Assembly: GCA_018985235.1 (NCBI GenBank)
Contig: JADGIG010000083.1
Span: forward strand, 1 to 22,354
Source: Sanchytrium tribonematis
Lineage: Eukaryota; Sanchytriomycota; Sanchytriomycetes; Sanchytriales; Sanchytriaceae
Length of the DNA stretch: 22,354 nt
Direction: 5' to 3'
The notes below the pieces were generated by a model. The model was not told the origin of the DNA, ran no database searches, and saw nothing but the letters and a program-made list of their open reading frames with translations. The position numbers and the translations under genes were made by a program. Positions 1,930 to 21,048 of the stretch are shown here, piece by piece. Positions within the stretch are counted from its first letter, which is position 1, and each line of letters begins with the position of its first letter.

Positions 1930-4096
1930 ATGAGTGTGTCAATATTGACAATCAATCTAGTTCGAAAAGAAATTCCTGTTGAGGCAGAATTGCGAAAATC
2001 ATATTACTCAATACTGCCTAATATTGATAAGCTTGCCAATTTGAATTTAAATAAGAAAGAATGTCTCAGTGGCTTACTTTATTCCATTTTATTGGACTTT
2101 AATTCGATTTCTTGGAATTCTTTTCTTCATTTTTACAAATTTTATTCCCCAGAGAAGCCGCTTCTGAAATTAGCTCAACATTTCGCCGATCTATCCTCTA
2201 CAAGCAAGTCAAATTTATTGAATAGTTTGTACGAATTGGGAAAATTAAATTTCAAGATTGATAAAATAGTAATATATTTAGTGAGGTATTTTGACGAAAA
2301 TGATGTGTTTTCTTTCTTGCTCAACGTCCGGCTTCACTTGAGTGACCAGAAAGTAGTTGCCGTTTTACTTTTCAATTTAATCAAAAAAAGACACAGCCTC
2401 CAAATTAATGAAAACGATCGAGCCCAACTCAATTCATGGATTTCCAATCTGGAAAACGATCCACAAATCTTAAAATATTTAGGACGTGAATTGTATAGTC
2501 TAACAAACATTTTTTCTACAAATCATCTCAAAGAATTCACATTTGAGGAGCAAAGAAAATCAATTGATCCAATATTTTACTCTTTGCAAATGCCAATTTT
2601 TCTTGAAGATAAAATTAAATTTTTACTTTTTCGGGTACAATTAAATGGTGGTACTATGCACTTGCAGTGGTTGGTAACCCAATTCAATAAGTTGAGTTTA
2701 GATTTGTTAAAATGTGCAATTAGGTACATTTGCTGCTACATACATCCACCCAATGATATCTTGGCTAGCCCTGTGATTCAGAGGTATATATTTTTTACCG
2801 AGCTGCATGATAATCTGATTTCTTCCCAACAGCGACATGTTTTAAATGATTCCATAATTTATGACTTGTTTTTCTACAAATCAGGGGAAATAATGAATAT
2901 CGAACCGGTAGCTTTGATGCTATTTCCAGGAGACTTAGCAAAGATTGAAATTGCAAATGAATTGTGGAAAACATTGAATTCGGCTATTGCGAAATTGACT
3001 TTGAATCAAGCCGGTAGTTTAAATGCCTTAAAACTGGCTCTTACGGAAGTATTGCAATTACAGGTTATATCTCAAAGTCGTTTAGAACGCAGTTTGACTC
3101 TCATGAAAAAGAAATGGGGTGTTTTGTACAAAAATATAATCAACAACAATATCAAGATCACAAATCAGATTGATTTGGAGGAGGATGATCTTTATGAGAC
3201 AAAAAGTGAAAAAGCCACCCCTCTGAATAGTCTTCAAAATGATGAAAACTCAAGTAAGGCTAGAGTTTTTATGAACGCAATGAACAAAATAGTGTCGTCA
3301 GAATCAAAACTGAATCAAGAAACAAAAGAATTGCACTTGTTTGATATGTTTAAAAAGTTCATTTTGTCTGTTGATGAATCCACCATTAAATCCTGCTTCG
3401 ATGATATCAACTTTAATTTAAAGTCATTTAAAAAGCCGCCACATATCTTTTACAAGGCATTTTTAGAAGAAGAAATTAAAAATCCTCAACTTGAAATCAT
3501 ATTCAATTCATTTTCATTCGCAAGCGCCGATTATTGTCTTTATAGAATAGCTAACTTAAACGTTGCAGATTTCATAAGTCGCACACCTATTGCATTAATT
3601 TTGAAATCTCTTCATTATCTTTTAGATGAAAAGCCCTTGAATATGTTCAATGACTTTTTATTAGCCTTAATAGTAAATGGAGCAAAAATTAGGTGGAATT
3701 TAATTGAACAATTTGTCAATCCTTTACTGAACTGTAAAATTAGAAATTACGTGTATTGTGAGAATTTGCCTTTGTTTACATCAGAGTTCAATATTAGTTT
3801 TTTAAAAAATGATTCCGCATCTAAATATATGATTTGTGACTTGGTATTTGCAGAAATCAAGCTTCTTCGAGCATTTAATTATCTGATCAAGTGCGTCAAA
3901 TTTTGGTTGGAATGTACCGGTAGTTTTATTTAAATTAGACATTGTTTTCGAATCGAAGTTACTGGAATGCATTTTTGATATAAATCTCAGCCAAGATTTC
4001 GTGAATCAGTTAAATGCGGTCCTGGAATCTCACCCTGATAAAAAGTACAAGATTCAACATATAATATTACAATTTCGTAAATTCGAAGCAAATTAG
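1930..4096 (+). CDS. INTS3: Integrator complex subunit 3 (INTS3/SOSS-A) homologue
   Basis: CDS is join(1930..3919,3939..4096), 715 aa. INTS3 is a helical-repeat scaffold that in animals serves both the Integrator complex (snRNA 3' processing, RNA polymerase II termination) and the SOSS single-stranded-DNA complex. The call rests on a block at about residues 260-326 that follows animal INTS3 closely from memory: LKCAIRYICCYIHPPNDIL, a conserved Arg, then LNDSIIYDLFFY and IMNIEP. In human INTS3 the same order reads CDLIRYIC..HP.NE.LSSD, then LALFYDWLFF and IMNIEPA. The remainder is divergent and all-helical, shorter than the roughly 1040-aa human protein. ATG 1930 is the first ATG; the open frame before it starts with TTG. 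Without the 19-nt intron the frame would stop at 3933; splicing restores 52 more codons. It converges on PDK1, 20 bp away. Confidence 0.75.
3920..3938 (+). other. 19-nt spliceosomal intron in INTS3
   Basis: GTAGTTTTATTTAAATTAG, phase 1 (splits a GAC codon). Retention gives a stop at 3931-3933. Removal joins the upstream frame to an otherwise unexplained open frame running to 4096. This site is supported by frame rescue and by matching the homology-proven introns, not by a conserved junction sequence. Confidence 0.8.
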
Positions 4097-4116
4097 GTTA
4101 ATATATAACAAGCAAT

Positions 4117-5654
4117 TTATTTGTGTAAAGTATTGGGATTTGCCAACATTTTAACAGTTCGAATTGATTCAACCCAAGTGTCAGCGTTCCCACTTTGATC
4201 TATCAAATGGTATGTTCTTTTGGGGGTATTGACCATGAAAGTGGTTTTGTTTTTAGTTTCGGGTTCAATGTCATCTGTCCAGGGTATCAATCCTTTTAAA
4301 GTCAATTCTCCAATTGTTTTTTGCTCCACCTCTCCACTATCGTCATCACTGTCACTTTTTTCTTTTTTCATATCCATTGTAGATTTCGAATTTTTATTTG
4401 TGGTTGATTCATTGATTATTTTCTTTGAATCTGCTTTCATTATCAATGCATTGCCTTTAAAATACATAAATCTGGGCAAATCAGTTAGAACAAACCACCT
4501 CTTTCTGGGAACAAGACCCTTTTTCTTATACAAAACACCCATTTTAATAATCCTTTCTTCTGGTTTCAAAAAGTCAGAAACTAACAGGACAGATTGATCG
4601 GATATATTAGAGAGCAATTTAGAAGGGTCAGTTTCGGTGGTATTAACCGAGGCTGTACTCCTCATTGAGGTACGCGACAAAGTACTAAAAGACGTTCGAC
4701 TTTTTCTTTTTGGTGGATCTAAATTCGTACCAATAGAGTCTTCATTTTCAACGTCATCCACTTTCAAAGGATGAAAAGGGGGCGGCGTCTTTAAATAAAG
4801 TTCTTTCCATTTGATGCTTCTGAAAAAGTCCATCGTGACCAATTCTTCATACCCAGCTCTATTTGGGGGCTCTAGAACTATTAATTTTGACGTCACTTGC
4901 TTTACTTTATCAGGAAAATCTAGAGGAAGTGTATATTGAAGCTTAGAAACTTTTTGGAAAGTTTGGTAATCGTTTGGGCCCTTAAAGGGAGGTTTTTGAG
5001 TAATCATCTGTATCATTATGCATCCAATAGCCCAAAAATCGCTTTTCTCGGATGCTTCTTTTTCACCTAAAACCTCTGGACTACATCAAAAATAATTTAC
5101 CTTACATACTCTGCTGTGCCAACAAAAGATTTAGTCCTTGTGCCGTCTGTACCGTCTTCTTCCTTTCTATCTAAAATTTTAGCTGTACCGTAGTCCGTCA
5201 GCTTTATGTGATTACTTGTGGAAAGTAAAATATTTTCCGGCTTTATATCTCTATGCAAAATTTTCATACTATGCAGGTAGTTGACACCTTCAATCAATTC
5301 TGCTGCATAAAATTGAACAGCATCCAGTGAGAAAGTACCTTCTTTGATACTTTTGAGTAAATCTCCTGGACATAACTCTAAACAAAAATACAAATTATTT
5401 TGATCTTGAAATGTATAAAACAATTTGACTATAAATGGGTGATCGCACATATTCAGTACATCCTTTTCTATGGTTACATATTTGACCTTGCGCTCTTTGA
5501 TTATATGTCTCTTATCAAGTACCTTTATAGCAAATTGTTTTCCAGTTGCTTTTTCTTTAGCGAGAAATACTGTGGAATAGCTGCCCTCTCCAAGAACGTC
5601 GTTCATCTCGAAGTCTTCCTGAGTTTTTTTCGCTTCATCTTTAGTAACTGACAT
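4117..5654 (-). CDS. PDPK1: PDK1-type protein kinase with C-terminal PH domain
   Basis: CDS is complement(join(4117..5080,5101..5654)), 505 aa. PDK1 (Pkh in yeasts) phosphorylates the activation loops of AGC kinases such as Akt/PKB and S6K. The kinase domain lies at about residues 14-275: glycine loop GEGSYSTV (22-29), Lys44, alpha-C Glu63, HRD (134-136), Asn141, and activation-loop SFVGTAEYVSPE with Ser176 equivalent to human Ser241. The magnesium motif is DYG (154-156) instead of DFG. A Ser/Thr-rich linker leads to a PH domain at about 360-500 (MGVLYKKKG, RKRWFVLT, FMVNTPKRTYHL). S. cerevisiae Pkh1/2 lack an obvious PH domain, so this layout is closer to animal PDK1. The ATG at 5654 is the first in frame. 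A 20-nt intron interrupts the EYVSPE motif. Confidence 0.93.
5081..5100 (-). other. 20-nt spliceosomal intron in PDK1
   Basis: On the minus strand GTAAATTATTTTTGATGTAG, phase 2 (AG|T). Removal restores GTAEYV-S-PE, the invariant activation-loop/P+1 motif. Retention stops translation after two codons. Confidence 0.95.
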
Positions 5655-5733
5655 GAAAAATTTCCGACCGTGTTTCAAACTTTGAGAAATTTAGTTACGG
5701 TTTAGCCTACGGCATTTTAAATTAATCTGAGAT

Positions 5734-6930
5734 TTATTTAAATAATTTCGACACACTCAAATTTTGTTCGCTATCTTTCTTCATAATCTTGGTAACAGCC
5801 ATTTCGAAATCTTCTTGAGAAACATGAATTCTTCTCTCTCTTAAGGCGTACATACCGGCTTCTGTACAAACACCTTTAACTTCTGCTCCACTGCAGCCTG
5901 TCATTAAACCAGCAACTTTTCTGAGGTTAATGCCTCTTTGCAAGTTCATTTTACGCGAGTGGATTTTTAAAATGTCTAGTCTAGCGTCCTCAGAAGGAGG
6001 AGGAAATTCAATTTTACGATCGATTCTGCCAGGTCTTAAAAGCGCAGAGTCGAGGATATCAATACCTAAGTAAATAAACAATAACGATTTGTTGCCATTA
6101 TAATCTTGATATTTTTTGTTTGTTCAAACCCATCCAGCTGATTTAGGAGCTCTAACATAGTTCTTTGCACTTCACTATCACCACTTCCATCTCCGCGGCT
6201 AGATCCAATGCTGTCTATTTCATCCATGAAAATAATTGAGGGCGCATGTTCTCTAGCCATGATAAATAACTCTCTTACCATTCTTGAACCTTCACCAATA
6301 TATTTCTGCACTAGTTCACTTCCACTAACTCTGATAAATCGACAATCTGTGTGATGTGCAACAGCTCTTGCAAGTAATGTCTAAATAAATATAAAATACT
6401 TTTCCGGTACCGGGAGGTCCATAAAGCAGTACACCTTTTGGTTGCTCTATACCTAAAGCTTCAAACAATTCGGGATGTTTAATAGGAAGTTCAATCACTT
6501 CTTTAATTTCTTTAATTTGTTGATCAAGACCGCCTATCATATCGTAAGATGCATCTGGCACTTTTTCTACCATCATGAGAGAAACAAGAGGATCTATTTT
6601 GTTGGGCAATATTTTATATAAGGAATAATTGTCATGTTTCAATGCAACTCTTGAGCTTGGGGCTAATTGTTTTCTGTCAACATCATCGTCAATCGTGACA
6701 AGATACTTACCATCAGGCTGTACTTTGATTAGAGCTTTATCATTTAAAATCTTGATGAACTCTCCTATATGTGCTGGAGGAGACTGCAAATGCTGATATT
6801 CTTCACCTAATAAGCGGACTTGGATGTTTAATAGGTTTCGTTGAGCTCTCAATCGCGCCAAATTGTTCTTTGCGCTATTAAGATTAAGCTCCAAATGTTG
6901 ATCTTGTCTCTCATAAACATTTGCAAGCAT
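5734..6930 (-). CDS. RPT6: 26S proteasome regulatory ATPase Rpt6 (PSMC5/S8)
   Basis: CDS is complement(join(5734..6065,6086..6380,6400..6930)), 385 aa. Rpt6 is one of six AAA ATPases in the proteasome base ring that unfold substrates and open the 20S gate. Seen: N-terminal coiled coil (about 5-50), OB-domain text [33 protein letters not shown], Walker A GPPGTGKT (171-178), pore-loop KYIGEG, Walker B IIFMDEID (226-233), and the second region of homology [11 protein letters not shown] with arginine fingers near 289 and 292. It ends SVSKLFK, like the Rpt6 terminus KLWK and without HbYX. The subtype is clear because [17 protein letters not shown] is Rpt6-specific. The N-terminus is about 20 residues shorter than human. 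Two tiny introns split it into three ORFs that could be misread as a pseudogene. ATG 6930 is the only good start. Confidence 0.97.
6066..6085 (-). other. 20-nt spliceosomal intron 2 in RPT6
   Basis: On the minus strand GTTATTGTTTATTTACTTAG, phase 1. Removal gives [19 protein letters not shown], exactly the conserved AAA sequence. It is the only one of the set starting GTT rather than GTA. Confidence 0.96.
6381..6399 (-). other. 19-nt spliceosomal intron 1 in RPT6
   Basis: On the minus strand GTATTTTATATTTATTTAG, phase 0, directly after the Walker A lysine. Removal gives [17 protein letters not shown], the invariant Rpt6 sequence. Confidence 0.97.
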
Positions 6931-6966
6931 TACAAAAGAAAAGTTTCAAAAATTAAAGAGTGAAAT

Positions 6967-7212
6967 TTATTCTTGAGCTTTTCGCAATCTTTTGACGATT
7001 TTGTTGACATTTATTTCCTGTGACATTGATTTGCATACTATATTACTGTATAATCTATAAATCCCGCTGAAATCGGTGCCTTTATAAATGTATACATCTT
7101 TTTTAGATTGAATCTTGATATAGCCCACAGTCCCTTTGAATTTGAGGAGCACCCTTGGATTTTCTAATGGTAAATCAAAATCTGTAATTTCTCTCAGTCG
7201 GATCGTAGGCAT
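6967..7212 (-). CDS. Small 81-aa protein, possible SRP9-like subunit
   Basis: A complete ORF from ATG 7212 to TAA 6967, 36 bp upstream of RPT6 on the same strand and 30 bp from the divergent PIG-M ATG. It has no membrane segment and a basic C-terminus (KIVKRLRKAQE). The central part, NPRVLLKFKGTVGYIKI, then VYIYKGTDFSGIYRLY and a C-terminal helix, follows the beta-beta-beta-alpha layout and several positions of SRP9 (VVLKY...G.L.VKV...C.VYKTD...). SRP9 pairs with SRP14 to form the Alu domain of the signal recognition particle, which pauses elongation. The resemblance was judged by eye and is weak at the N-terminus, so the name is tentative; the ORF itself is likely real. Confidence 0.6.
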   Translation of the reverse strand: MPTIRLREITDFDLPLENPRVLLKFKGTVGYIKIQSKKDVYIYKGTDFSGIYRLYSNIVCKSMSQEINVNKIVKRLRKAQE

Positions 7213-7242
7213 AGATTGTCCCTTTGTTGCAAATTTTACAAA

Positions 7243-8376
7243 ATGCTTGTAAGCTCAGTCACAAAGCGACTTTTCTATGGGTTTATTCTAAGACTTCTCT
7301 TATTCGTAATATCTCTGATATTGGATCAGTATCAAGTCAAATTCACTGATGTCGATTATTTTGTTTTCTCAGATGCAGCTAAATATGTTTACGAGGGAGC
7401 ATCGCCTTACAATAGGGCAACATACAGATACACGCCAATCCTTTCTTACATTCTAGTAGGAAACATCTGGAATCCGTACTTTGGAAAGCTGTTCTTTATA
7501 TTCTGCGATTTGATAGTTGCACTATTTATAGAGTTACAAGGCTTCGACTCCTCCTTATGGATTTTGAATCCTATCATCGCAATTATTTCAGTTAGAGGTA
7601 ACGCAGAATCTTTTGTTTCGGCAATTATCCTATTATTTCTGTATTTTCTTAAGAAAAATAACGTGGTGATTTCTGGTTTATTTTTTGGCTTTGCTTGCCA
7701 CGTTAAAATTTACCCAATTATATATGCGCCAGCAGCTCTAGTATATTTGAATCAAAGAAAAGGAACTTTATTAGATAATCTCAAGGGATGTCTTTCTGTG
7801 AATTCCATCAAATTTTTTATATCATCAGCTTCGGTTTTTCTTGGACTTTTGAGTTTATTTTATAGGTGCTATGGTTACGAGTTTCTTTACGAAACCTATT
7901 TATACCATGTCGTTCGTAAAGATCATCGACACAATTTTTCAATCTATTTTTATCCACTTTACCTATCCAATGGCTCAAATATGGAACAAATGCTTTCTCT
8001 TGTGGGATTTTTTCCACAATTTGTGCTAGTTGGTTTGATAGGATTAAGGTATGGGGCATTTATTTACGATGTGGTGTTTCTCCAAACAATATTATTCGTC
8101 GCCCTCAACAAAGTGATGACATCACAATACCTTATTTGGTATCTTTGTTTCTTACCCTTTTGCTACAAGAAAATTATCAGAGTGAGACAAAAATGGTATA
8201 TATTATTAAATTGGGTAGTCTCTCAATTATTTTGGTTATATAATGCATATCTATTAGAGTTTAAAGGAAATCCTACATTTATATATTTATGGGCTTCCAG
8301 CATATGTTTTAGTTTTAGTCATATATGGTTTGTATACAACTTCATGGACCTCTTGAATAAATCCAAGATCCAATAA
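7243..8376 (+). CDS. GPI14: GPI mannosyltransferase 1 (PIG-M/Gpi14)
   Basis: PIG-M adds the first mannose to glucosamine-acyl-phosphatidylinositol in the ER lumen, using dolichol-phosphate mannose. The 377-aa product begins with a hydrophobic segment (FILRLLLFVISLIL) and carries the catalytic DxD region TDVDYFVFSDA with EGASPYNRATYRYTP, followed by FGKLFFIFCDL, LNPI, RGNAESF and HVKIYPIIYAP, all PIG-M hallmarks. Many membrane spans follow, with the conserved RHNFSIYFYPLYL and MTSQYLIWYLCFLPF motifs. ATG 7243 is the first ATG in the frame. The gene ends 1 bp from the stop codon of the convergent F-box-like gene, so its 3' UTR must run into that gene. Confidence 0.95.
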   Translation: MLVSSVTKRLFYGFILRLLLFVISLILDQYQVKFTDVDYFVFSDAAKYVYEGASPYNRATYRYTPILSYILVGNIWNPYFGKLFFIFCDLIVALFIELQGFDSSLWILNPIIAIISVRGNAESFVSAIILLFLYFLKKNNVVISGLFFGFACHVKIYPIIYAPAALVYLNQRKGTLLDNLKGCLSVNSIKFFISSASVFLGLLSLFYRCYGYEFLYETYLYHVVRKDHRHNFSIYFYPLYLSNGSNMEQMLSLVGFFPQFVLVGLIGLRYGAFIYDVVFLQTILFVALNKVMTSQYLIWYLCFLPFCYKKIIRVRQKWYILLNWVVSQLFWLYNAYLLEFKGNPTFIYLWASSICFSFSHIWFVYNFMDLLNKSKIQ

Positions 8377-8377
8377 A

Positions 8378-9511
8378 CTAATATTTTTTGAGTATTTCCA
8401 GCTCTTTCGCGCAACTTTCGAGTGCAAGCTCATACAAATCCAGATTTAAATAGGACCCTAAACTCGCCATCAATTTCTTAAATTCATATATCTCCATTTC
8501 ATCTGAAGGAGGACTTATTGCAAAGTACTCTTTTCCAGATCGTACTGCATATTTTGGTTTCTGCTTTGTAGGATAATTTCTCATTTCAAACCATTCGCTA
8601 CTTTCTGGAAATATGTATAATCTATAGTTTTTACAATTGAATCGTAAGAAATTAATCGCAGCGTTTAAATTGCTAGTTTGTGGGACTGTGTGAAATTCAA
8701 TATTGCAATCTTTGACACAGTAAGCTGGCAAACAAAAATTATCTTTGGTGATAATGAGACTTAGTTTGGACAATTTTATAGGGTATTGAACTGCGTTTGT
8801 GATGGAGACCGATTGGACATTGGGAAACATTGAATAATCATTATTGTCTTTTATCACCAAGTCTTCAAATGTTTTTAAATTTGGAAATGTTTTAGCTATT
8901 GCAACATAAAAATCTGGCGTGCTTGAATACTGAATGACAACGGTGTTGACACAGTATATGGGCGGAGATAGTGTCTTAAAATCAGGCTCTGATAAAAAAT
9001 CAATTTTAACGCTAATTTCGACTGGTATAAGTCGCAATTCCTGAAAGAATTCTCTGGTATATACATCAAAATTTAAGACTTCTATACTCTTCAAACCTTT
9101 CATGTTAGCTCTAATTCTCGAAAGTAAAATTGCCACAGAGTTGGACATAATGCGGCTGAAATACTCCTGATGCAATTTGACATGGACGCAGTTTTTCAGT
9201 CTTTCAAACGGTAAAATAAATAAATAAGTATTATCCTTGCCCAAGGTTAAATCTAGCTGTGTAATCCATGTAGAATACGAAAAAAAATTGATATCAAAGT
9301 AGAGAGGCACACCATAAATATTAGACCCGATATTATAAGATAACTTTAATTTGGAATAGAGTTTTCTTTTTAAATATATTTCCGTCAAGGCCTTATTGAG
9401 CATAAACGGTGATGCTAAGGCAGACCGTGACTCTTTTCTATCCACTTTATAAGGATCCGTCTTATATTCCATTAAGATTTTGCTGATAATTTCAACTGGT
9501 AATTTTACCAT
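8378..9511 (-). CDS. F-box-like protein of unknown target, 377 aa
   Basis: A complete ORF from ATG 9511 to TAG 8378. The N-terminus VKLPVEIISKILMEY reads like the first helix of an F-box (LP.EI...IL), which would recruit Skp1 of an SCF ubiquitin ligase. The remainder alternates strands and helices with leucine-rich but irregular spacing (LKNCVHVKLH, LKSIEVLNFDVY, FPNLKTFEDL, FPNVQSVSI, LSKLSLII), suggestive of degenerate leucine-rich repeats. I cannot name an orthologue. The F-box match is only the first ten or so residues, so the call is tentative, but length and intact frame make the gene itself secure. It converges on PIG-M with 1 bp between stops and diverges from SmB across 36 bp. Confidence 0.7.
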   Translation of the reverse strand: MVKLPVEIISKILMEYKTDPYKVDRKESRSALASPFMLNKALTEIYLKRKLYSKLKLSYNIGSNIYGVPLYFDINFFSYSTWITQLDLTLGKDNTYLFILPFERLKNCVHVKLHQEYFSRIMSNSVAILLSRIRANMKGLKSIEVLNFDVYTREFFQELRLIPVEISVKIDFLSEPDFKTLSPPIYCVNTVVIQYSSTPDFYVAIAKTFPNLKTFEDLVIKDNNDYSMFPNVQSVSITNAVQYPIKLSKLSLIITKDNFCLPAYCVKDCNIEFHTVPQTSNLNAAINFLRFNCKNYRLYIFPESSEWFEMRNYPTKQKPKYAVRSGKEYFAISPPSDEMEIYEFKKLMASLGSYLNLDLYELALESCAKELEILKKY

Positions 9512-9515
9512 GTTC

Positions 9516-9532
9516 CGGAGTATAAATCTCCG
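9516..9532. promoter_or_regulatory. TATA-like box within a short inverted repeat in a bidirectional promoter
   Basis: The 36-bp space between the F-box-like gene and SmB contains CGGAGTATAAATCTCCG: perfect 5-bp arms flanking TATAAAT (9521-9527). The TATAAAT is 27 bp before the SmB ATG, a spacing that would put the transcription start close to the ATG. Role inferred; no other promoter shows the same arms. Confidence 0.35.
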
Positions 9533-9547
9533 TGAAATCTATTTTTA

Positions 9548-9961: not shown

Positions 9962-10011
9962 AATTTTACCATCGCTATTTTGTATTATTTATTGTTATAG
10001 TATATCAAAAA

Positions 10012-10218: not shown

Positions 10219-10233
10219 AATTTTAAGGAGTAA

Positions 10234-11664: not shown

Positions 11665-11687
11665 TGTCAAATCAGAGTTTAAGATAT

Positions 11688-14394
11688 TTATTTGTCAAAT
11701 GGATTGTCAATTGACTCTGGAACTGGTCTCTCTTTCGTTGGATCTGTCAGTTCAAATGCTTTAGCACTTTGGTGGGCTTTTAACTCAAACAGTTCTTCTT
11801 TAGTTCCTGGCTGCAAGTCTTCCAATAATTGAATTCCGATGAGACCACTCACAGATTTCAAAGGTTGATATCTACTATTTTTGGCAATTTCGACATGTTT
11901 GACCTGTTGGGGAGTAACTCGGTGTAAGTTTTCCAGCTCAGAAAATTCAGGTTCATCCTCAACAATTTGAGATACCTCTTCGTTGTCTTCTTCAATGGGT
12001 TGGTCCTATATAAGTAGTGAATACGACTTCCATTGGGGAATTTACATTTGACTCTCTTCGCTTTTTGTCTTCTCTTGCCTTGTGTTTCTGGCTAACGGAT
12101 AACACTGCTGTCTTAATTTTATGATCGTCCTTTTTAGTTGGTTCTTTTGAACTAGGAGGATAATCGAACAAAGACGGTTTACATTTTGAAAGAATCTTAA
12201 ATTTTGGTATCTGAAGGTCTTTGTTTAAACCTATAAAAGCTGTTGGTGTAAAAGATAAAGAGAGAAACATAGTCAAGGGGTACCAATACCAATATTGCGT
12301 AAAGAGAGCCATTCCAACAATAGCAGACATATTCGAGTGGCCTGATCTTGACTGAAGACTAATGGTTGTATTTCTACCACCAGCATTTAAGATACCTTGT
12401 GCTAAAACTGCTCCAAATTTAGCCATGCTATTTTCACGCTTATCATTAGTGATTTTTTCGAAAAGCTTGACAACCTCCTCGTATTTTGGATTCTTTGAGT
12501 TTTGCTGCATCAAAATCATCCCTAAAGCAATTAAGGCGCCCTGTCTCACAAAATCAATTGAATCTTTTAATATTGGCATCAAAAGATCAATTGCTTTTTC
12601 GCTTCCGGTACCTGCGCATACAATACCAAGTGCAAGACACGATCCATAACGAACATTAGGATTATAACTTTCGGCCAATAATGATATGACTTCTGGAAAT
12701 GATTCTGGCTGCTTAAACATAAGAAAGCCTAAAGCAATGACAGCTGCCCTTCTAACGTCATCATTGACATCACTAACAGCAATGTGCAGTAGATGCTTGA
12801 CTGCCTTATTATCTGCAGTGCCAGCGTAAGCCATTCCAGTTGTAAAGGCACCAGAATATCTAAGAATTGGGTCCTTATCTTTTAGTAATTTCTCTATTGT
12901 TGCATCAGCAGCTTGCTCTCTACCATACATTATAAGTGCAATACCAACTGCAATACCTCTAATAATTTTTTCGTGTTGAGTGTCATGTGCATACTGAATA
13001 AGTTCATCTACTATTTTCTCCTTTCCACATCCAAGCATTAGCAAACCTATTGCTATAGCTGCAGCTTCACCTGCAATGGCAGAATCGCTAAATAATACCG
13101 ATCTTAAATCATTATAAACGCCTTCATCATTTGAGGCCATAAGTGCAAGACCTAAACCAAGGCAAGCACCATGCTGTAAAATATCATTCTGAGACTTTAA
13201 TTCTTTTCTAATTATTTCGCTAACATCTTTTCCGTGTTTAGCATGAATCAATCCGAGTGCGTAAAGTGATCCTGCTTCGCTATGAGACTGTGTGCTCACA
13301 CTTTCTTGTGGCAAATAAGGCTCTAAAATTTTAAGAGAGTTGCCAATTTGACCTTTATGTATCACACCAAGTGCGGCTGTGGCTGTAAATTTTGACCAAT
13401 TATTAGCTCTTGACAGCCATTCCAGGTTTTCCCTTAAAAATTGGTCATAAGTAGTTCCTGCAAACATAAATGCATTAGAAACACTCAAAGCGGTGTGGTG
13501 AATGGAATTTCTTGCGTCTAGAGAATCTTTTACGTTCTTGAGTATTTGTAAATCTCCTTTGTTGTTTCTGTACATAAATTCCAAGTAAAAAGACAAGCTC
13601 TTCTTCCCATTAAGAATATCTTTTAAGCTAGTGAAGGGAGATTCGATATCCATATCTGATTCGGGTACTGGTATCTCTTGCATCACTTTGTTAAGCAAAA
13701 ACTGGGAAGCTTCTTGTTCTAAGTCGAACGCGATTTGATATGCAGTAAGCAGGTCGTTTTCTTCAATTAATTTTATCAAAAGCTTGGATAATTCTAATGG
13801 TTTGTCTAAATGTAAATAACATTGAACTGCAGGAAAATAATCCTTGTTTGCCACAAATTCTAGCACAAGAAGCTCAAGAATCTTGTTTCTAAAATTGATA
13901 TCAGAGTCAAGTAATATTTCGAATATAATACCAAGAAACTCTTTGCCTTTTTCCACACAGCGTTTAACTAAAGATAAATTCTGAGCTTGAACAGCCATTC
14001 CTACTACTAACTCGACATATCCACTCTTAAAAGCATCGGCAATGATTTTCTCGATCATTTCGTTGAGAAGAGGATCTATCGATTGCTCGGTTTTACTCTG
14101 GGCAACAAAAGTCTCAACTGCGTTTTGAATGACGCTTTTGACATATAAGGACTGTTCATTAAGATTGGATTTGAGAGCATATTTCAACACTAGGTCAGGA
14201 ACTCCCAAATGAAAATAGATCTTTGAAATTAAGAGGGCCAAGTCATCATTTTTCGACGAAAGATACATCTTTTCTAAATTTGGAAGATGATCAGCCAATT
14301 CACTCCAGTATTGGTCTACCTGAGAATGTAACTCTTGAAGCGCGAATGGTGCGCAAGAATTTTCATTCAAAAGTGCAACTAGTCCAGCTGACAT
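11688..14394 (-). CDS. RPN2: 26S proteasome regulatory subunit Rpn2 (PSMD1)
   Basis: CDS is complement(join(11688..12005,12025..14394)), 895 aa. Rpn2 is the large PC-repeat scaffold of the proteasome base that holds Rpn13 and the ATPase ring. Seen: N-terminal AGLVALLNENSCAPFALQ (PSMD1-like), a helical rod, then a toroid of proteasome/cyclosome repeats at about 390-730 with the repeated pattern G..LALG....G (e.g. GACLGLGLALMAS, YGSCLALGIVCAG, GALIALGMILM). A basic KKDDHK...KARE segment follows. After the intron comes the conserved C-terminal RVTPQQVKHVEI...SRYQPLK, ending NPFDK. The upstream TTG at 14415 is ignored; ATG 14394 matches the family start. Without the intron the last ~105 residues would be lost. 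Confidence 0.96.
12006..12024 (-). other. 19-nt spliceosomal intron in RPN2
   Basis: On the minus strand GTATTCACTACTTATATAG, phase 0. Removal connects PMEV to DQPIEEDNEEV and the conserved Rpn2 C-terminus (RYQPLK). Retention stops 11 codons on. The internal ACTAC could serve as a branch site. Confidence 0.94.
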
Positions 14395-14450
14395 GTTACA
14401 AAAATTAATTTGCAATTACAATTTCAAAACAAAAAATTGTTCCGTTTATT

Positions 14451-16746
14451 TTACAATTTTGTGACTAGACCATCCGCAACAAAAACTTTGTTGTTATCCA
14501 TCAAAGCATTCAAATAGAACGAAATTTCGTCCCTTGAAAAATCACTCAAGTCGCTGTATGAACGATCTTTCAAATTTTTAACGGCCTCAAAAAAATCACT
14601 CTCTGGCATTTGCTCGCTATCTGCAAGAAAAGTGCTAATCATCTCAGTGAAAATCTCCAATCTAAATAAGTTAAGTATACCTTTCATATGATTCGGCATC
14701 TTCCGGGGCAGCAGCACCAGTAGAAGGCTTGTCTTTGCTTCTGGTTTTGTGAACAATTTCTTTTTCTTGTTCATCCAAATCCATTGCATCATTATCATCA
14801 TCGTTGTCATCACCACTATCAATATCGTCATCATCTGAAGCAGCCTGCTCTTGTTTTACCTTTTTAGTGGGCCTATGTTTTACTACTTCCTTAAAAAGTG
14901 ATAATTTTAGCATTTTAAATGCAGCCTCGGCATCCTTCTTATTTATAGTGTTCGAAAGTCTAGCTTTTGCAAAAGCTGTCGATAAACGAATCATAGTTTC
15001 TAAAGAACGAACAGTAACTGGTAATGTTTTCTTTTGGTTATAATTTGAATTTCTTAGATTTCCATATTTTTGAGTTATATATCTTGCAGCTTCATCCGAA
15101 AGAATCGGTTTAATGACTGAGCGAGCGTACCAAATATACTTCTTTAAAAATTCGCTGGACAAAACACGTACACCATTGACAGTAATAATGGATTCAACAA
15201 TTTCATCTTGGTTGTCTTTTGGCTCCATCATATAGTTCAAAGGCGTATCTTCCATCACCTGGCCCACTTCGTATTGGTCTGGGACAAATCTTCTGTTCTT
15301 TAAAACATGCGTTGCCAAATGGCTATCATGGACCTCATTAGGGCGATCAAGCATGATAAATAGCAAATCAAATCGACTCAGCAAACTATCAGGCAAATGT
15401 ATGTTTCGAGCAGGATCAATGCTTTCATCATAAAGCCCATATACAGGATTGGCAGCGGCAATCATTGAACAACGTGCATTTAAGGTGACGCATATTCCAG
15501 CTTTAGCAATTGTAATCGACTGTTGTTCCATCACTTCATGTATCGCTACTCTGTCAATATCGCTCATTTTGTCAAATTCGTCTAATAAAACATGTCCTTG
15601 ATCAGCTAAGACGCAAGCACCAGCCTCCAACGTTTTCTCACCGCTTTCCTGATCGTGCGATACCGCAGCTGTAAGACCAACTCCAGAGGCTCCTCTACCA
15701 GTGGTTGACACGCTCAATGGGGCAACTTTAGTTAGATATCGAAGCAATTGAGATTTTCCCACACTGGGATCCCCTACCATAAGTACGTTAATTGATCCTC
15801 TTAATCTTCCACCCTGGTTTAAATGTTTTTCAACTCCTCCTAATAAGCTCAAAAGCAAACCTTTTTTGACAATTTCATTTCCATAGATCGAAGGAGCAAT
15901 ACTTCTACTTAGCAATTCAACTACGTTTTTTTCTTCAGCAACCAATCGCTTCATTTCACTGATCTCGTCGGGCGACACTTTGGTAGAACTGGCAGTCTTA
16001 TTTAACAAATTGATATGCACCGCTACAATAGCCTTTTTAAAATTCCCCATCTTACCACCCATTGTGCGGTAGAATCCTACCACTTGAATTCTGTCACCAG
16101 GTTTTACACTATCACAGAGATGTCCAGATAACATCACATCGATAGACCTTGGAAGTTGACCAGCTGGCGTTAATTCCGGAATTTCTTGCACTATTAAAAA
16201 TTGGTGGTTTTCATATTGTGATAATCCCGGTTGCAGTTCCAACGCATCCCCAAATTTGTCATGCGTTGGAAGTGTAGTTGAAGTGGCAACTTCGTCATTG
16301 ATTCCATTCCCATCGTTGTACAATTTTTCAACTCTATTATTGTTAGAAGATATCTGCAAGCTTTTTTTCAACTTTGGCTTGGTTAATGCAGATTTGGTGA
16401 CAATGCAATCAACACAAACCATTTTGTTCAGTAAATTGCTACGTAATCCACGAGGTGTGACATGATGATCGGCCATTATTCCCATTAAGCCTACCATTTT
16501 CTTTTCGACTCCATAATTTGATGCAGATTCGTCCACTGCTCTACATAAGGATGGGTAGTATAAGACGGGTTGATTTAAAATCCCGTCCACAAGAACGTGA
16601 TTGTACTGTCTTAAATGTTCAAATGAGATAACTAAGGACTTTAGGTCTTTGTTTTGCAAACGGTCATTGTAAGTTCCCATTGGAAATGGTTGTTCTAAAA
16701 ATCTCACAAATTCCTGGTAAATTACATCACTTGCTTGTTCTTGCAT
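14451..16746 (-). CDS. MCM3: DNA replication licensing factor MCM3
   Basis: CDS is complement(join(14451..14661,14681..16746)), 758 aa. MCM3 is a subunit of the MCM2-7 replicative helicase. Seen: N-terminal HHVTPRGLRSNLLNKMVCVDCIVTK and PAGQLPRSIDV, typical of MCM3, with no zinc-finger cysteine set; MCM box with Walker A GDPSVGKS (325-332), Walker B VLLDEFDKM (387-394), sensor AAANPVYG, and arginine finger LLSRFD (R458). A strongly acidic Asp-rich linker (about 648-680) follows, then a winged-helix C-terminus reached only after splicing. Walker A has Gly where most MCM proteins have Ala (SVGKS for SVAKS), a common P-loop variant. ATG 16746 fits the family start. Confidence 0.96.
14662..14680 (-). 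other. 19-nt spliceosomal intron in MCM3
   Basis: On the minus strand GTATACTTAACTTATTTAG, phase 2 (AG|A). Removal extends DAESYER into LEIFTEMISTFL and the conserved MCM3 winged helix. Retention stops after three codons. TTAAC is a possible branch site, about 9 nt from the 3' end. Confidence 0.93.
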
Positions 16747-16857
16747 GTCTCAAGATGGCGACAACGAGGATAAAAAAATATACAAGATTTTTTATTTTTT
16801 AACAGCTAATATAAATTTAGACAATATAATTGCGCAACCACACACCAAAAAGAATAA

Positions 16858-17175
16858 TTATTCTTTAGAAGCTCCCAATCCAGTGTATTCCTGAGAATCA
16901 AATTTTTTCTTATCAAGTCTCACCTTTTTCGAAATGCCCAATTCGGCGTTCATCAATTCGGTTTCAAGTTTCTTCTGCTTTTTCTTTTTCTTTTTATCAA
17001 GTTTGTCCTGTTTTTCTTTGGAATACCATAGTAAATCTTTCCCTCTCCGAGTTGTAGTCTGTCTAGATGAAACTCCTAAATAATGCTCTCGTTCCGCATA
17101 TTCCACATTATCCCATTTAAATTGGTCTCGTCCGCCTCTAACGTTACTAGAGACTGCAAATTTATTTTCCTTCAT
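16858..17175 (-). CDS. MMTAG2: MMTAG2 (C1orf35-like) kinase-phosphorylation-domain protein
   Basis: The 105-aa product contains NVRGGRDQFKWDNV, EREHYLGVSS and RRGKDLLWYSK, matching the start of human multiple myeloma tumor-associated protein 2 (VRGGQDQFNWEDVK...RENYLG...GRDLTWYAK). A lysine-rich helix (KLDKKKKKKQKK) follows, then ELMNAELGISKK and a final GLGASKE that parallels the family's GLG motif. Members are small, basic, probably nuclear proteins of unknown biochemical function. ATG 17175 is 22 bp after the SNRNP40 stop on the same strand. The family is clear from the signature; function is not known. Confidence 0.85.
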   Translation of the reverse strand: MKENKFAVSSNVRGGRDQFKWDNVEYAEREHYLGVSSRQTTTRRGKDLLWYSKEKQDKLDKKKKKKQKKLETELMNAELGISKKVRLDKKKFDSQEYTGLGASKE

Positions 17176-17197
17176 TTGTTTGTTTCAGGGAGAAACA

Positions 17198-18055
17198 TCA
17201 GTCCATAATATTCAGCTCTCCAACCAGAATTTTTCCATCAAGAGAACAACTGATTAGGTTGCTGTCACTTATAAGCACCTGGGTCACGGAATCTACATGT
17301 CCGCCCAATGTATATATTAACTCCTGAGAGACTATTTCAAAAATATTCACATTTCCGACTGCGGTTCCACAAGCAACATAATGTCCACCATCACTTAAAT
17401 ACGGCCTAATAGAATTAAGTGTCAAGTTATTCATTGGATTATCGAAAACTGTTAAAAGCTTACAGCTTCCGCTATTTTCAACATTCCACAACTTAATGGT
17501 ATTATCAAGACTAGAACTGACCAGATGATTGTTGTTAAAGTGCAAGCCCAATATAGCATTATTATGTCCCACAGAATCAATTGATTTAAGCTGCCTTACA
17601 TCGTAAATTGTGATTTTACCGCTGGCATCACCAGCATAAATAAATTTGTCAAATTCTAGAGCCAAGATTTGAGAATTTGTTTTGATTTTATGTTCAAATG
17701 TTTTTGAACGCGAATCCCACAAAATCAAATTTTTATCATTTCCGCCACTTGCAATTAAATGGTCTTGACTTGCACAACCAAGTACAAAATTTTCATGGCC
17801 CTTGAAAGTTCGGATATGGTCACCTTCTATAGCCCAAAGTTTAAGCGTCATATCGGCCGAACTAGTCAATACTCTAGTTTCAATGTCATTTACAAAGCAA
17901 ATATCAGTTATTGCGTTATGATGAAATGTTTCTGCGAAAAAGATTTTTTGTTGATAATCAAACCAAAGAATTCCTCCGTTTTGCCTGCCAGACACCATTA
18001 CATCCCCATTATGTGCCATAGCGGTGACTGGATTTTGCAAGTCTATGGAATACAT
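17198..18055 (-). CDS. SNRNP40: WD40 protein, probable U5 snRNP 40K (SNRNP40)
   Basis: A 285-aa WD40 propeller with seven recognisable blades (e.g. SADMTLKLWAIEGDHIRTFKGHENFV, cut here at LKLW; SGGNDKNLILWDSRSK; SSLDNTIKLWNVE). SNRNP40 is a component of the U5 snRNP and Prp8 partner. Specific support comes from the tail: an extra loop before SIRPYLSDGGHYVACG, then IYTLGGHVDSVTQV, and a final blade ending CSLDGKILVGELN, which parallels ASSDKRLYMGEI in human SNRNP40. Blade wording NSQILALEFDKFIYAG parallels TYQVLAVTFN...ISGG. The N-terminus is shorter than human, with no extension before the first blade. WD40 identity is certain; the orthologue call is likely. Confidence 0.8.
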   Translation of the reverse strand: MYSIDLQNPVTAMAHNGDVMVSGRQNGGILWFDYQQKIFFAETFHHNAITDICFVNDIETRVLTSSADMTLKLWAIEGDHIRTFKGHENFVLGCASQDHLIASGGNDKNLILWDSRSKTFEHKIKTNSQILALEFDKFIYAGDASGKITIYDVRQLKSIDSVGHNNAILGLHFNNNHLVSSSLDNTIKLWNVENSGSCKLLTVFDNPMNNLTLNSIRPYLSDGGHYVACGTAVGNVNIFEIVSQELIYTLGGHVDSVTQVLISDSNLISCSLDGKILVGELNIMD

Positions 18056-18381
18056 TTCAAGGGGACAATATTCATTTTTACGCTTTAAATTAATTCTTTA
18101 AAGAAATATTTATCAATAAAGAAGACGCAAATCAATTACAATACTCAATTATGACTAATATTGAGATTGGCAACGTTCTAACAATAAATTGAAATTGTTT
18201 TGAACTCGAGGCTGAAAACAAATATGGATTAATAAAATAGTTCTATCTATATTGAGCATTTGATCACGTGTGTCGCAATTTAATTGCTGTAACATGGATA
18301 TCCTGAAATCTAAATCAAGGAGCATTTTAGATATCCCGCTTCTGGTGTAACCTCTATCTGTTGATTGATAACCCTTGCGAC
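18056..18381. other. Longest intergenic space, SNRNP40 to transporter
   Basis: This 326-bp divergent gap is roughly tenfold larger than the other head-to-head gaps. Apart from the candidate small gene it holds AT-rich sequence next to SNRNP40 (18056-18154), including a short out-of-frame upstream ORF, MNIVPLKCIP, that overlaps the SNRNP40 ATG. No tRNA, repeat or clear TATA box was seen. Confidence 0.5.
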
Positions 18382-18383
18382 AT
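18155..18383 (-). CDS. Candidate small 69-aa gene with one 19-nt intron
   Basis: The 326-bp space at 18056-18381 is the longest without a firm gene. On the minus strand an open frame ends at TAG 18155. One model is join of 18373-18383 (ATG TCG CAA GG) and 18155-18353, removing GTTATCAATCAACAGATAG; it gives 69 aa, helix-prone, with LDFRISMLQQLN and VQNNFNLLLERCQ. An intronless alternative starts at ATG 18325 (56 aa). The proposed intron has the right length and GT/TAG ends but lacks the T-rich body of the proven ones. The ATG would overlap the transporter ATG inside one CATG. No family recognised; it may be non-coding. Confidence 0.3.
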
Positions 18384-19741
18384 GGGAAAACAGATATTGA
18401 TAACCGCGATTGCAACAATCGGTGGATTTGTTTTTGGTAGTGATATTGGTCTTGTGAGTAAGATCCAAACATATCATTCCTTTAAAAAATTATTTCATTT
18501 ATCGACTGCTCAATTGGGTTTAATGGTGGCAATATTTTTATTAGGGTGTATGTTGTCCAGTTTAGGTTCGTCTTATCTGGCGGAAGCTTATGGTAGGAAG
18601 AAGTCAATCATAATTGGTGCTATTATTTTTACAGTTGGTATTGTGACTCAAATGTCTGCAGTCTCTGGCGTGAATGTTTTGATGTTAGGAAGGTTTTTTA
18701 CAGGTTTGGCTGTTGGAATTTTATCGACTATTGTGCCCATGTATTTATCCGAAGTGTCTGATCCAGAACAGCGAGGAATGTTGGTTAGTTGTCAGCAATT
18801 GGCAATTACTTTAGGAATTTTGGTTTCATTTCTTGCTGCTATGTGGACCGAGAATGTTAGTTTTTTTGGCATGGATGATTGGCAATCTGCAATTAGTTTG
18901 CAACTTGTCCCGGCTGCACTTCTTTTTGGTGGTATGTTGACACTGCCCGCTAGTCCAAGATGGCTTTTGTCCAAGCGACGACATGAAGATGCTAAAATCG
19001 CACTCTCAAAATTGAGAGGTACGAATTTCGCAAATGTAGAAGGGGAATATTATAAATTGAAATCTGACTCAGAAGCAGAAACTGAGCAGCTTTCCTGGGG
19101 TGCTGCTTTAAGTCAGTACAGAAGCAGAATCCTTATTGGAATCGTCATTCAAATGTTTCAACAGATATCTGGTATAAATGGCTTAATGTATTACAGCACT
19201 AAAATGTATACTCAGTTGCTGCCCGACTATGTTGACACTCTAGCTGCAGCTCAAAATATTTTGAACGTCGTTGCAACAATTCCTGCTTTATTTTTAGTCG
19301 ATAGACTTGGTCGTCGATCTCTGTTATTGGCAGGTAGTGCTGGTTGTGCTATTGGACTATTTATGACAGCAACTTCCATGTTGCTCCCGACACCTTATCC
19401 AGTTGTCGCAGTTATAGGAATATTTATTTTTGTTATTAATTTTGCTTATGCTATTGGCCCGCTTCCATGGGTATTTTATTTTAATTTAGGTTGTGTGCTC
19501 CGAAATTTTTCCGTCCTGCATTCGTTCAAAAGCAGTCGCAGCTAGTACAGCCTCGAACTGGATTTTTAATTTGATTGTTTCCTTTTCAGCTCCTATTTTA
19601 CTTGACTCTATCGGGCCTTACACATTTTATATTTTTAGCGGTGCTTGTTTAATTATGTACTTTTGGGTTCTAAGAACACTTCCGGAAACTAAAGGACTTA
19701 CGTTGGAACAAGTTGATAAATTATTATCAAAAGGGAAATAA
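18382..19741 (+). CDS. MFS sugar transporter (hexose-transporter type)
   Basis: CDS is join(18382..19470,19490..19741), 446 aa. This is a major-facilitator sugar porter with about 12 membrane spans, expected in the plasma membrane for sugar uptake. Signatures: IGGFVFGSDIG in span 1, EAYGRKKS after span 2, GRFFTGLAVGI, P.YLSEVSDPEQRG, LPASPRWLLSKRR (the usual PESPRWL with Ala for Glu), MFQQISGINGLMYYS, DRLGRRSLLL, GPLPWV-VCSEIFP across the splice junction, and the terminal PETKGLTLEQVDKLL. Substrate cannot be read from sequence; hexose is the likeliest. ATG 18382 starts just before span 1, so the N-tail is very short. Its last 115 bp are antisense to the end of PAN3. Confidence 0.95.
19471..19489 (+). 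other. 19-nt spliceosomal intron in the sugar transporter
   Basis: GTATTTTATTTTAATTTAG, phase 0, between GPLPW and VVCSEIFP, a universally conserved stretch of sugar porters. Retention shifts the frame and stops translation at 19545. Confidence 0.97.
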
Positions 19742-21031
19742 ATTTTTAATTCTTTTATTGATTTTTCTATTATTTCTCGCAGTTCATGATAGGACACAAT
19801 TAGTAAATTCCTTTCGTCTCTTGACATTAGCAAAATTTTATCCATGCTCCCAGAATCAAGCTAAATGAAGCAACATTACCTTGTTCAAATGAAAAAGTAG
19901 ATGATAAACGTCTAAAACTGGTTGCCCATGAGCGTCAACTTGGTGAAATAGGAAGTCGCGAAACAATTTTAGCAAATAATTTCCGCCATTCTCAGCCCAT
20001 CTCTCTGAATTCTTGTAATTAGATCTTTCATTTATAACACCTAATTTGAAGAGCACATTTGCAACTCTTTTACTCTCTTCTAACTTTGCAATCTGATCTT
20101 GATGGTTATTTATAATATTCGCTTGCAAATTTATTGTGCTGTACATATATGGGGCCGCTATATTGAGAATTTCGTCAATGCTGCGAAAATTGCCTTTAAC
20201 ACATTTACCTACAATATCCTTAATCCAAGTTTCTTTAATTTTATTTAACATTTCTGGTATATATTCAAGAAAGGGAATACTTTCATTAATAATCTGTAAA
20301 ATCATGAATCCAAATTGTATTAAATCATTTCTTTGCATTATATCAGTTGGTTTGTCAAAAATAATAGGGCCAATGCCGATTCCTCCTATTTTTATTAAAC
20401 CACTTTTGGTAGCAAATATTTTATATGGGTGGAGACAGCCTCCAAAATAAAGTTTTTTGCTGTGTACTTCTTTTATGCAACATAAAATTTGAAGTATAAT
20501 TTGTTGTATATGTATTTTTCTGGAAAATAAAGAATAGCCTTCGCAGAATTCATAAACCATATTCAAAGTGTAGGTATTATTGTTTATAGTAGTAAATCCT
20601 TCTTTAAGTTCTAAGCAAAAGCCACTTATTTTTGTACAATAAATTTGTGATTTGGCTACTCTTTCACCAATTGACTTTTCAATTTTGAGCTTATGGATAG
20701 CACATATTGATCCATTTACATAACTGTAATCTACTGCTGTGGGAGTTGTAAAGACTCCATTATCTTCTTCATAGCTATAAATCGTTTGACCGTAATGACC
20801 TACTTCAAATAAGACGGTCTCAAAATCAGTCAGATCATTGGAGTAATCATATTGTATCTCTTTCATAGGTGTCCGTAATGTAGGGATTATATTTTCGTCT
20901 ACATTCTGATACATTTTAAAGTGCTCAAATTTTGTTTCAAAATAATTTAATATTGGCTTCATTTGATTTAGCGAGTGTGGAAATTTCGATAGTATTATCC
21001 CACTGGGGAAGTATTTTAAAGAGCCCACCAT
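19627..21031 (-). CDS. PAN3: PAN2-PAN3 deadenylase subunit PAN3
   Basis: CDS is complement(join(19627..19860,19880..21031)), 461 aa. PAN3 is a pseudokinase that dimerises and tethers the PAN2 poly(A) nuclease to mRNA. Seen: pseudokinase region (IYSYEEDNGVFTTP to INESIPFLEYIP), coiled coil EESKRVANVLFKLGVINERSNY, and the C-terminal knob domain (RWAENGGNYLLKLFRDFLFHQV cut at LFRD; GQPVLDVYHLLFHLNK), then after the intron LDSGSMDKILLMSRDERNLLIVSYHELR. The frame is open to ATG 21133, but that stretch is antisense to TSR1, so ATG 21031 is preferred. No CCCH zinc finger or clear PAM2 motif remains at the N-terminus. About 38 C-terminal residues extend antisense into the transporter gene. Confidence 0.93.
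19861..19879 (-). other. 19-nt spliceosomal intron in PAN3
   Basis: On the minus strand GTAATGTTGCTTCATTTAG, phase 0. Removal joins HLNK to LDSGSMDKILLMSRDE, the conserved end of the PAN3 knob domain. Retention stops after seven codons. Confidence 0.95.
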
Positions 21032-21042
21032 GTTTTTAAAAA

Positions 21043-21048
21043 TATAAA
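21043..21048 (+). promoter_or_regulatory. TATA-like box upstream of TSR1
   Basis: TATAAA lies 28 bp before the TSR1 ATG in the 39-bp divergent gap to PAN3. The spacing is nearly the same as for SmB (27 bp), which would imply a very short 5' leader. In an AT-rich genome this could be chance. Confidence 0.25.

Follow-up and report, generated by a model that had tools for sequence, protein, structure and literature searches.

Our analysis of a window of 22,354 nucleotides (the whole stretch of DNA examined) from Sanchytrium tribonematis, extended to a larger sample of the genome, indicates that this fungus very probably carries ordinary U2-type introns that have shrunk to a single class of 19 nt (sometimes 20 nt) with a fixed-spacing plan. 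The eight introns proposed for the window by the first-pass annotation were all found at their coordinates (Table 1), and six are 19 nt and two are 20 nt long. The reported ends were also confirmed: seven begin with GTA and one with GTT, and all end with TAG (TTAG in six). GT...AG ends are thereby present in all eight, whereas the further introns described below have them by construction of the search. Neither 19 nor 20 is a multiple of three, and each excision fuses two open frames.

Table 1. Positions of the predicted introns and of the genes that contain them in the window.
Feature	Position	Strand	Presumed branch A	Support or remark
INTS3 gene, two exons	1930..4096	+		
INTS3 intron, 19 nt	3920..3938	+	3933	Frame continues into second exon
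PDK1-like kinase gene, two exons	4117..5654	-		
PDK1 intron, 20 nt	5081..5100	-	5086	Homology
RPT6 (PSMC5) gene, three exons	5734..6930	-		
RPT6 second intron, 20 nt, GTT start	6066..6085	-	6071	Homology
RPT6 first intron, 19 nt	6381..6399	-	6386	Homology
RPN2 (PSMD1) gene, two exons	11688..14394	-		
RPN2 intron, 19 nt	12006..12024	-	12011	Homology; length-free gene finder
MCM3 gene, two exons	14451..16746	-		
MCM3 intron, 19 nt	14662..14680	-	14667	Homology; relatives' read-through tails
Sugar transporter gene, two exons	18382..19741	+		Start approximate
Sugar transporter (MFS) intron, 19 nt	19471..19489	+	19484	Homology
PAN3 gene, two exons	19627..21145	-		5' limit approximate
PAN3 intron, 19 nt	19861..19879	-	19866	Homology

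As had been claimed, homologues span seven of the eight junctions, the exception being that of INTS3. Both RPT6 junctions are covered in the alignment with PSMC5, which is free of gaps nearby, and homology spans the junctions of PDK1 (...VGTAEYVSPEVL...), PAN3 (...HLNKLDSGSMDKI...) and the transporter (...GPLPWVVCSEIFP...). The second exons of MCM3 and RPN2 match the full-length relatives P0004 and P0132, respectively, and the MCM3 protein records of two other relatives (P0002 and P0003) continue from the same intron position into unrelated read-through tails. The identity of the INTS3 protein is supported (E 7e-8), but the match stops short of the intron junction, the putative position of which was derived solely from the open frame. 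The PAN3 frame does not close until the stop at 19627, and its last part is antisense to the end of the transporter gene; the PAN3 protein used in the homology comparison ended at 19741, short of this stop.

Gene-finder runs bear out the proposal of a standard intron class of 19-20 nt for the 3.5% of the genome that was sampled (222,354 bases out of 6.34 Mb). With intron length left free, the gene finder called 43 introns, of which nine measure 19 nt and two 20 nt, while three decoy motif sets run through the same program yielded 0, 0 and 2 introns of 19-20 nt. Longer introns numbered 27 in the real run versus 27, 34 and 29 in the decoys. This finder undercounts, because only two of the eight window introns were recovered. 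A finder based on splice-site profiles, with 16 training introns and spacing free from 12 to 150 nt, recovered six of the eight and called 20 introns of 19 nt and four of 20 nt (decoys at 19-20 nt, 1 and 2); 11 of these 24 lie outside the training set. No introns were called at 12-18 nt or at 21 nt, although about half of any introns of 18 or 21 nt, those without an in-frame stop, escape detection. Two were called at 22-40 nt, and 15 at 41-150 nt versus 24 and 32 in the decoys. The intron-length histogram that the first-pass annotation had suggested as a check, run on these 222 kb, has its sole excess at 19-20 nt, other lengths being at about decoy level. Introns of this class are predicted by the profile-based finder in 23 of the 125 genes in the sample.

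Simple motif counting was rejected as evidence for the 19-nt class because GTA...TAG segments are equally common at several other lengths (97 at 19 nt and 88-97 at 13, 25, 31 and 37 nt). A search for simple-repeat arrays that might cause this periodicity found none. When an A at position -6 was required, 50 segments were counted at 19 nt versus 32 or fewer at any other length. In a local frame test, the 20-nt count (two) was no higher than in decoys (0-3). Since detection requires frame disruption and undercounts, and since the calls include 15 introns of 41-150 nt, 19-20 nt could be merely the most easily seen class, with many longer introns missed by frame-based methods. We consider this unlikely, because long-intron calls do not exceed those of the decoys in either gene-finder run and Prp8, at 2239 aa, is encoded in a single open frame.

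The single short class also has a fixed internal geometry. Among 18 introns gathered regardless of this base (two of which, L002 and L012, are weakly supported), all carry an A at the sixth base from the 3' end (-6); shuffled sequences reached at most 14 of 18, and none of 20,000 shuffles matched the observed value. In the 20-nt introns, the extra base sits upstream of this A. Because the A is fixed at -6, the presumed branch point and the 3' splice site would be approximately 5 nt apart. The first-pass annotation had seen no classical TACTAAC box. This is true of the exact box, which is found in none of the eight window introns, but a degenerate version, TAYTNAY, is present at a fixed place (-11 to -5) with the presumed branch A at -6. 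T occupies -8 and T or C occupies -9 in 17 of the 18 introns each, and A occupies -10 in 12. Pairing with the GUAGUA of U2 averages 4.44 of 6 positions versus 3.23 in shuffles, none of 5000 of which reached 4.44. A(-6) is the best or tied candidate for this pairing in 16 introns and the unique best in 10, while another A ties in six and pairs better in two. The latter cases, together with the lack of a branch signature that Irimia and Roy describe for other short-intron genomes (PMC2483917), would fit real introns in which the fixed A is a by-product of AT-rich ends and branching occurs elsewhere or at varying sites. However, the A varies no more than the terminal AG does, and the flanking bases follow TACTAAC. 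We therefore regard that reading as quite improbable and A(-6) as the presumed branch point.

The first-pass annotation had recommended an inventory of SF1/BBP, U2AF and U1 proteins. SF1 is present, its gene being itself interrupted by a 19-nt intron, and a U1 snRNA gene carries the 5' motif (ACUUACCU) with an Rfam score of 43.7 bits, under the 69.5-bit cut-off. The U2 snRNA gene has an intact GUAGUA, the U6 snRNA gene has ACAGAGA, and Prp8 is conserved. Slu7 was missed with PF11708 at first; the loss of this protein was considered and then dropped after another query recovered a shortened Slu7. The candidate is 138 aa long (113 and 148 aa in relatives), covers positions 2-100 of the 253 of PF11708, and scores 21.2 bits, below the Pfam cut-off of 27.9. 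Near the position of the Prp18-binding EIE motif of yeast Slu7, placed by eye, IEL residues occur in P0241 and no such residues in P0242 and P0243.

Because PF11708 missed a Slu7 that another query found, negative family searches mean little here. Prp18 was matched neither with PF02840 nor with a typed query, and U2AF2 was not found in family searches; these absences are unproven because the assembly is probably incomplete, and weak because Isy1, searched for in the same genome as a control, was likewise not convincingly found. Several candidates were rejected. A protein matching PF02840 has a Sec31-type SRA1 domain and is not Prp18, L026 fits SF-CC1/RBM39 far better than U2AF2 (199 versus 50 bits), L030 is a sorting-nexin-like ORF rather than Isy1 despite a score above the Pfam cut-off, and L028, considered as Slu7, resembles a retroelement fragment.

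That the segments are not introns but reflect DNA-level elimination, translational bypassing or assembly errors is extremely unlikely: they have TA at both ends, as ciliate eliminated sequences do, but against this stand the GT...AG ends, the fixed branch-like A and the match to U2, the presence of U1, U2, U6, Prp8 and SF1 in the genome, and the protein records of two relatives, in which the MCM3 sequence gives way to an unrelated tail at the same position. Judging from these sequence features, we infer removal by splicing. An intron of this type would be tiled with almost no slack. Bases 1-6 (GTA, then T-rich) would serve U1 and then U6; after two bases, the seven-base TAYTNAY box would pair with the GUAGUA of U2, leaving the branch A(-6) bulged, and would be followed by one base and the TAG. 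A fixed spacing of approximately 5 nt downstream of the branch A, rather than a pyrimidine tract, would determine the 3' splice site, and the single tolerated extra base would fall upstream of the branch A, after the 5' site. Prp18-type measuring of the distance from the branch to the 3' site may have been lost or altered. In yeast, the shortest natural distance is 10 nt, or 7 nt with Prp18 deleted (PMC10711555); the presumed spacing of approximately 5 nt is thus below even the minimum reported for yeast lacking Prp18.

Introns this short are known elsewhere, as the first-pass annotation had noted. The nucleomorph of Bigelowiella natans has many introns of 18-21 nt (PMC10245619), the same length range; it is, however, a remnant algal nucleus and not a fungal nuclear genome, and PMC2483917 reports no branch signature for it, in contrast to the evident box here. 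The rhizarians Mikrocytos mackini and P. canceri combine a reduced spliceosome with introns of 16-17 nt (PMC10245619), which are likewise very short and very uniform with conserved sequence. Among fungal relatives, microsporidia share short introns with a conserved TACTAAC-like box, but theirs are longer (13 introns with a mean of approximately 36 nt in Encephalitozoon cuniculi; PMC2483917). Further parallels are found in the heterotrich ciliate Stentor coeruleus, with introns of 15-16 nt and the branch A at position 10 of 15 or 11 of 16 (PMC9505925). By our count from these positions, its branch A is six bases from the end, like the presumed A(-6). Also shared are a narrow range of intron sizes, the GTA start, a conserved Prp8 and intact motifs in U1 and U2. 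In S. tribonematis, by contrast, the stretch from the 5' site to the presumed branch A is four bases longer, a TACTAAC-like box can be seen, the genome retains a reduced Slu7, and the lineage is fungal. In PMC9505925, Slu7 and Prp18 are not identified in Stentor and U2AF2 is listed as present, whereas U2AF2 was not found in our probably incomplete assembly. Since the geometry is the same and neither Slu7 nor Prp18 was identified there, the resemblance looks convergent.

The lineages with tiny introns most likely gain a new, fungal member. More tentatively, and with somewhat less than an even chance in our estimation, a whole fungal lineage may define the 3' site by spacing alone, having lost Prp18 and U2AF2 and kept only a core of Slu7, with Stentor having independently arrived at the same geometry and at the loss of Slu7 and Prp18. 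If so, loss of the Prp18 ruler would be a general requirement for tiny introns. In an MCM3 tree, the clade is on a long branch and its position was not resolved. The genome has a GC content of 35.2%, between those of the two sanchytrids. According to PMC8371127, sanchytrid proteins were predicted by taking open frames, with introns left unmodelled, as a result of which intron-bearing genes would be cut short or frame-shifted. The MCM3 record P0001 and the RPN2 record P0121 are damaged in this way, and similar damage is expected for genes like those 23 predicted to contain a 19-20 nt intron.

Among the matches listed in the open-licence literature, no report of 19-20 nt introns as the standard class of a fungus was found, in agreement with the first-pass annotation. 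Within the literature searched, this would be the first fungal genome of this kind. After Stentor, it would also be the second lineage, and an independent one, to have a nearly invariant A at the sixth base from the intron's end. Whether a minimum distance between the branch and the 3' site is imposed by Prp18 and Slu7 would thereby become testable by comparison.

The genome searched comprises 311 contigs (6,336,753 bases), with the window as contig C293. The eight introns that the first-pass annotation had placed in the window, six of 19 nt and two of 20 nt, were all confirmed at their coordinates, and each starts with GT and ends with TAG. As had been claimed, seven of the eight junctions are backed by homology. 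The spliced translations of RPT6 (both junctions), PDK1, PAN3 and the sugar transporter continue as conserved protein, and the MCM3 and RPN2 junctions are crossed by homology to the full-length relatives P0004 and P0132, respectively. The exception is INTS3, in which the protein was identified by homology and the junction is backed by the open frame alone. INTS3 itself is an Integrator subunit 3 homologue within a reduced fungal genome. Before it meets a stop, the PAN3 frame continues ∼38 codons further, on the strand opposite the transporter 3′ end; either two convergent genes overlap here, or there is another undetected gene boundary.

To obtain an intron-length histogram, we analysed 222,354 bases (3.5% of the genome searched; GC content, 35.2%), made up of the window and the opening 10 kb of each of 20 contigs. 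Long open frames served to train the gene finder, in which introns of 10–150 nt have equal cost and only GT...AG is required. Of the 43 introns called in this free-length run, 9 measure 19 nt, 2 measure 20 nt, 1 falls in the range 10–18 nt, 4 in 22–40 nt and 27 in 41–150 nt. Three decoy runs, in which another motif pair replaced GT...AG, yielded 39–43 calls, including 0, 0 and 2 of 19–20 nt and 27–34 of 41–150 nt. With a looser intron cost, 11 introns of 19–20 nt were called versus 1, 1 and 2 in the decoys. The free-length run recovered two of the eight window introns. A local frame test, run separately, detected 11 introns of 19 nt (1–4 in five decoys) and 2 of 20 nt (0–3 in decoys); one of the 11, within a TSR1-like ORF in the window, is apparently spurious.

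When splice-site profiles built from 16 introns were added with the spacing left free, 20 introns of 19 nt and 4 of 20 nt were called and none of 12–18 or 21 nt, together with 2 of 22–40 nt and 15 of 41–150 nt (24 and 32 in the two decoys). These decoys gave one and two calls of 19–20 nt. Eleven of the 24 introns of 19–20 nt lie outside the training set, and six of the eight window introns were recovered. A looser setting recovered seven and called 22 introns of 19 nt, 5 of 20 nt, 1 of 21 nt, 5 of 22–40 nt (decoys, 26 and 9) and 29 of 41–150 nt (decoys, 86 and 64). Longer calls are thus at or below decoy level, which upholds, for the 3.5% sampled, the view that 19–20 nt is the standard class. 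The near-absence of 18- and 21-nt introns is fair rather than strong evidence, because frame-neutral introns are detectable only with an in-frame stop, in about half of cases. Simple scaling of the 24 introns roughly gives ∼680 of 19–20 nt in the genome searched. Among complete predicted genes of the sample, 18 of 23 such introns are located past the midpoint of the CDS. Intron-poor fungi usually show a 5′ bias, the reverse of this distribution; introns that follow a short first exon may escape the gene finder.

Raw motif counts were less simple. GTA...TAG pairs at 19 nt numbered 97 in the sample, and those at 13, 25, 31 and 37 nt numbered 88–97, with no excess at 16, 22, 28 or 34 nt. This periodicity counts against a simple motif argument for the 19-nt class; simple-repeat arrays were sought behind it in the sample and none was found. 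When an A was demanded at −6, the sixth base from the intron 3′ end, 50 pairs remained at 19 nt and at most 32 at any other length from 12 to 44 nt.

The profile contains this A, and the profile run is therefore unusable as a test of it. We instead used 18 introns chosen regardless of A: the 8 window introns, an SF1 intron and the 9 further introns of 19–20 nt from the free-length run, with two weak ones (in contig starts L002 and L012) retained. All 18 have A at −6, whereas interior shuffles reached at most 14 at any single position (20,000 trials). The surrounding columns are T at −11 (12 introns), A at −10 (12), T/C at −9 (17), T at −8 (17), mainly T at −7 and T/C at −5 (16). Columns −11 to −5 thus make a degenerate TACTAAC, which refines the earlier remark that no classical branch box is visible. 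With A(−6) bulged, the introns pair with U2 GUAGUA at an average of 4.44 of 6 positions versus 3.23 in A-keeping shuffles, none of 5,000 of which reached 4.44; A(−6) is top or tied for pairing in 16 introns and sole top in 10. The three 20-nt introns again have A at −6, so that their extra base lies upstream of the A.

Locations of features described in the text (L024, L028 and L030 are loci in the genome searched)
Feature	Location	Length
SF1 intron	L024:1900-1918	19 nt
INTS3 homologue	window 1930-4096	
RPN2 and MCM3 region	window 11688-16746	
PAN3 antisense frame extension	window 19627-19741	
Zinc knuckle and protease motif	L028:1480-1794	
Isy1-like stretch in ORF	L030:622-3234	

A 19-nt intron would then be wholly taken by signals, with bases 1–6 serving U1 and U6, 9–15 serving U2 and 17–19 forming the 3′ site. 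Most simply, spacing from the branch would define the 3′ site, which would leave Slu7 and Prp18 with little role. By the convention of PMC10711555, the A-to-end distance is 5 nt. According to the excerpted text of that paper, natural branch-to-3′ site distances in budding yeast go no lower than 10 nt, and cells with a prp18 deletion use distances down to 7 nt; Prp18 is described as a ruler setting a minimum distance, Prp18 and Slu7 are both dispensable at short distance, and Cyanidioschyzon merolae is without either.

In the genome searched, U2 and U6 snRNAs are present with intact GUAGUA and ACAGAGA, and U1 is present with ACUUACCU at a score under the Rfam cut-off. Prp8 (2,239 aa) is encoded in one uninterrupted open frame and is well conserved over the last 962 residues, which were compared. 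Of the proteins in the suggested inventory, SF1 was found. SF1 has a KH domain above the Pfam cut-off and a helix-hairpin domain slightly below, and its gene itself has a 19-nt intron; U2AF2 was not found in these contigs, the best of 23 TIGR01642 matches, the one examined individually, being an RBM39-type protein. Slu7 was not detected by PF11708 in the genome search; a typed human query detected a 138-aa protein that keeps the zinc knuckle and the KRD, NFD, R.D.A.YL and AWE blocks and stops where the human sequence continues (21.2 bits against Pfam, positions 2–100 of 253, under the cut-off). Of its two relatives, one has 148 aa and the other, which carries the label PF11708, has 113 aa. Another zinc knuckle, at L028, is followed by a retroviral-type protease motif, an arrangement that suggests a degraded retroelement. 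Prp18 was not found with PF02840 or a typed query. These absences of Prp18 and U2AF2 are weak, because the control family Isy1 also gave no convincing match and the genome searched is possibly partial: all 29 contigs sized are at least 10,309 bp, and it may be limited to contigs >10 kb, which would make up perhaps 60% of the whole assembly. An Isy1-like stretch (33.6 bits, above the Pfam cut-off) lies within a sorting-nexin-like ORF at L030.

According to excerpts of PMC8371127, both sanchytrid genomes (GC, 36.27 and 34.64%) were assembled with SPAdes, and proteins were taken from open frames by TransDecoder, without introns. The MCM3 and RPN2 records of this genome (P0001 and P0121) read through the introns into short false tails. 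Matches 78% (MCM3, P0003) and 63% (RPN2, P0122) identical are co-located on EukProt NODE_16_length_41655, from an apparent second assembly, as in the window; this neighbourhood is therefore conserved. MCM3 records P0002 and P0003 end shortly past the splice position with unrelated tails. Back-translation by eye of these tails (...DR-YLILT-stop in P0003) is consistent with an intron in the corresponding place, of 19 nt in P0003 and 20 nt in P0002, each with A at −6; the tail of RPN2 record P0122 is likewise readable as an intron, that of P0123 not clearly. Introns common to relatives are only a lead, drawn from protein tails rather than DNA by a by-eye method that misread the SF1 intron. A further MCM3 record, P0005, filed under the moray eel Gymnothorax javanicus, outscores every named fungal record against the MCM3 of the window, although it grouped with animals in the MCM3 tree.

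The nucleomorph and shorter heterotrich precedents cited at first pass are in print: excerpts of PMC10245619 give intron classes of 18–21 nt in the chlorarachniophyte nucleomorph, 15–16 nt in heterotrich ciliates and 16–17 nt in mikrocytids. Among the open-licence papers listed for short introns of fungi in general, of Cryptomycota and of sanchytrids, no fungal case was recognised by title or abstract opening, in agreement with the claimed lack of a fungal precedent. In the excerpted text of PMC9505925, the branch A of Stentor is at position 10 of 15-nt and 11 of 16-nt introns, and Slu7 and Prp18 were not identified. The Stentor A is thus also at −6, as in the window introns, and we infer that the same intron shape evolved twice, in Stentor and in this genome. 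Tiny introns of this kind are already known; what appears to be new is the fungal case, with the fixed geometry of its branch site and its reduced Slu7.
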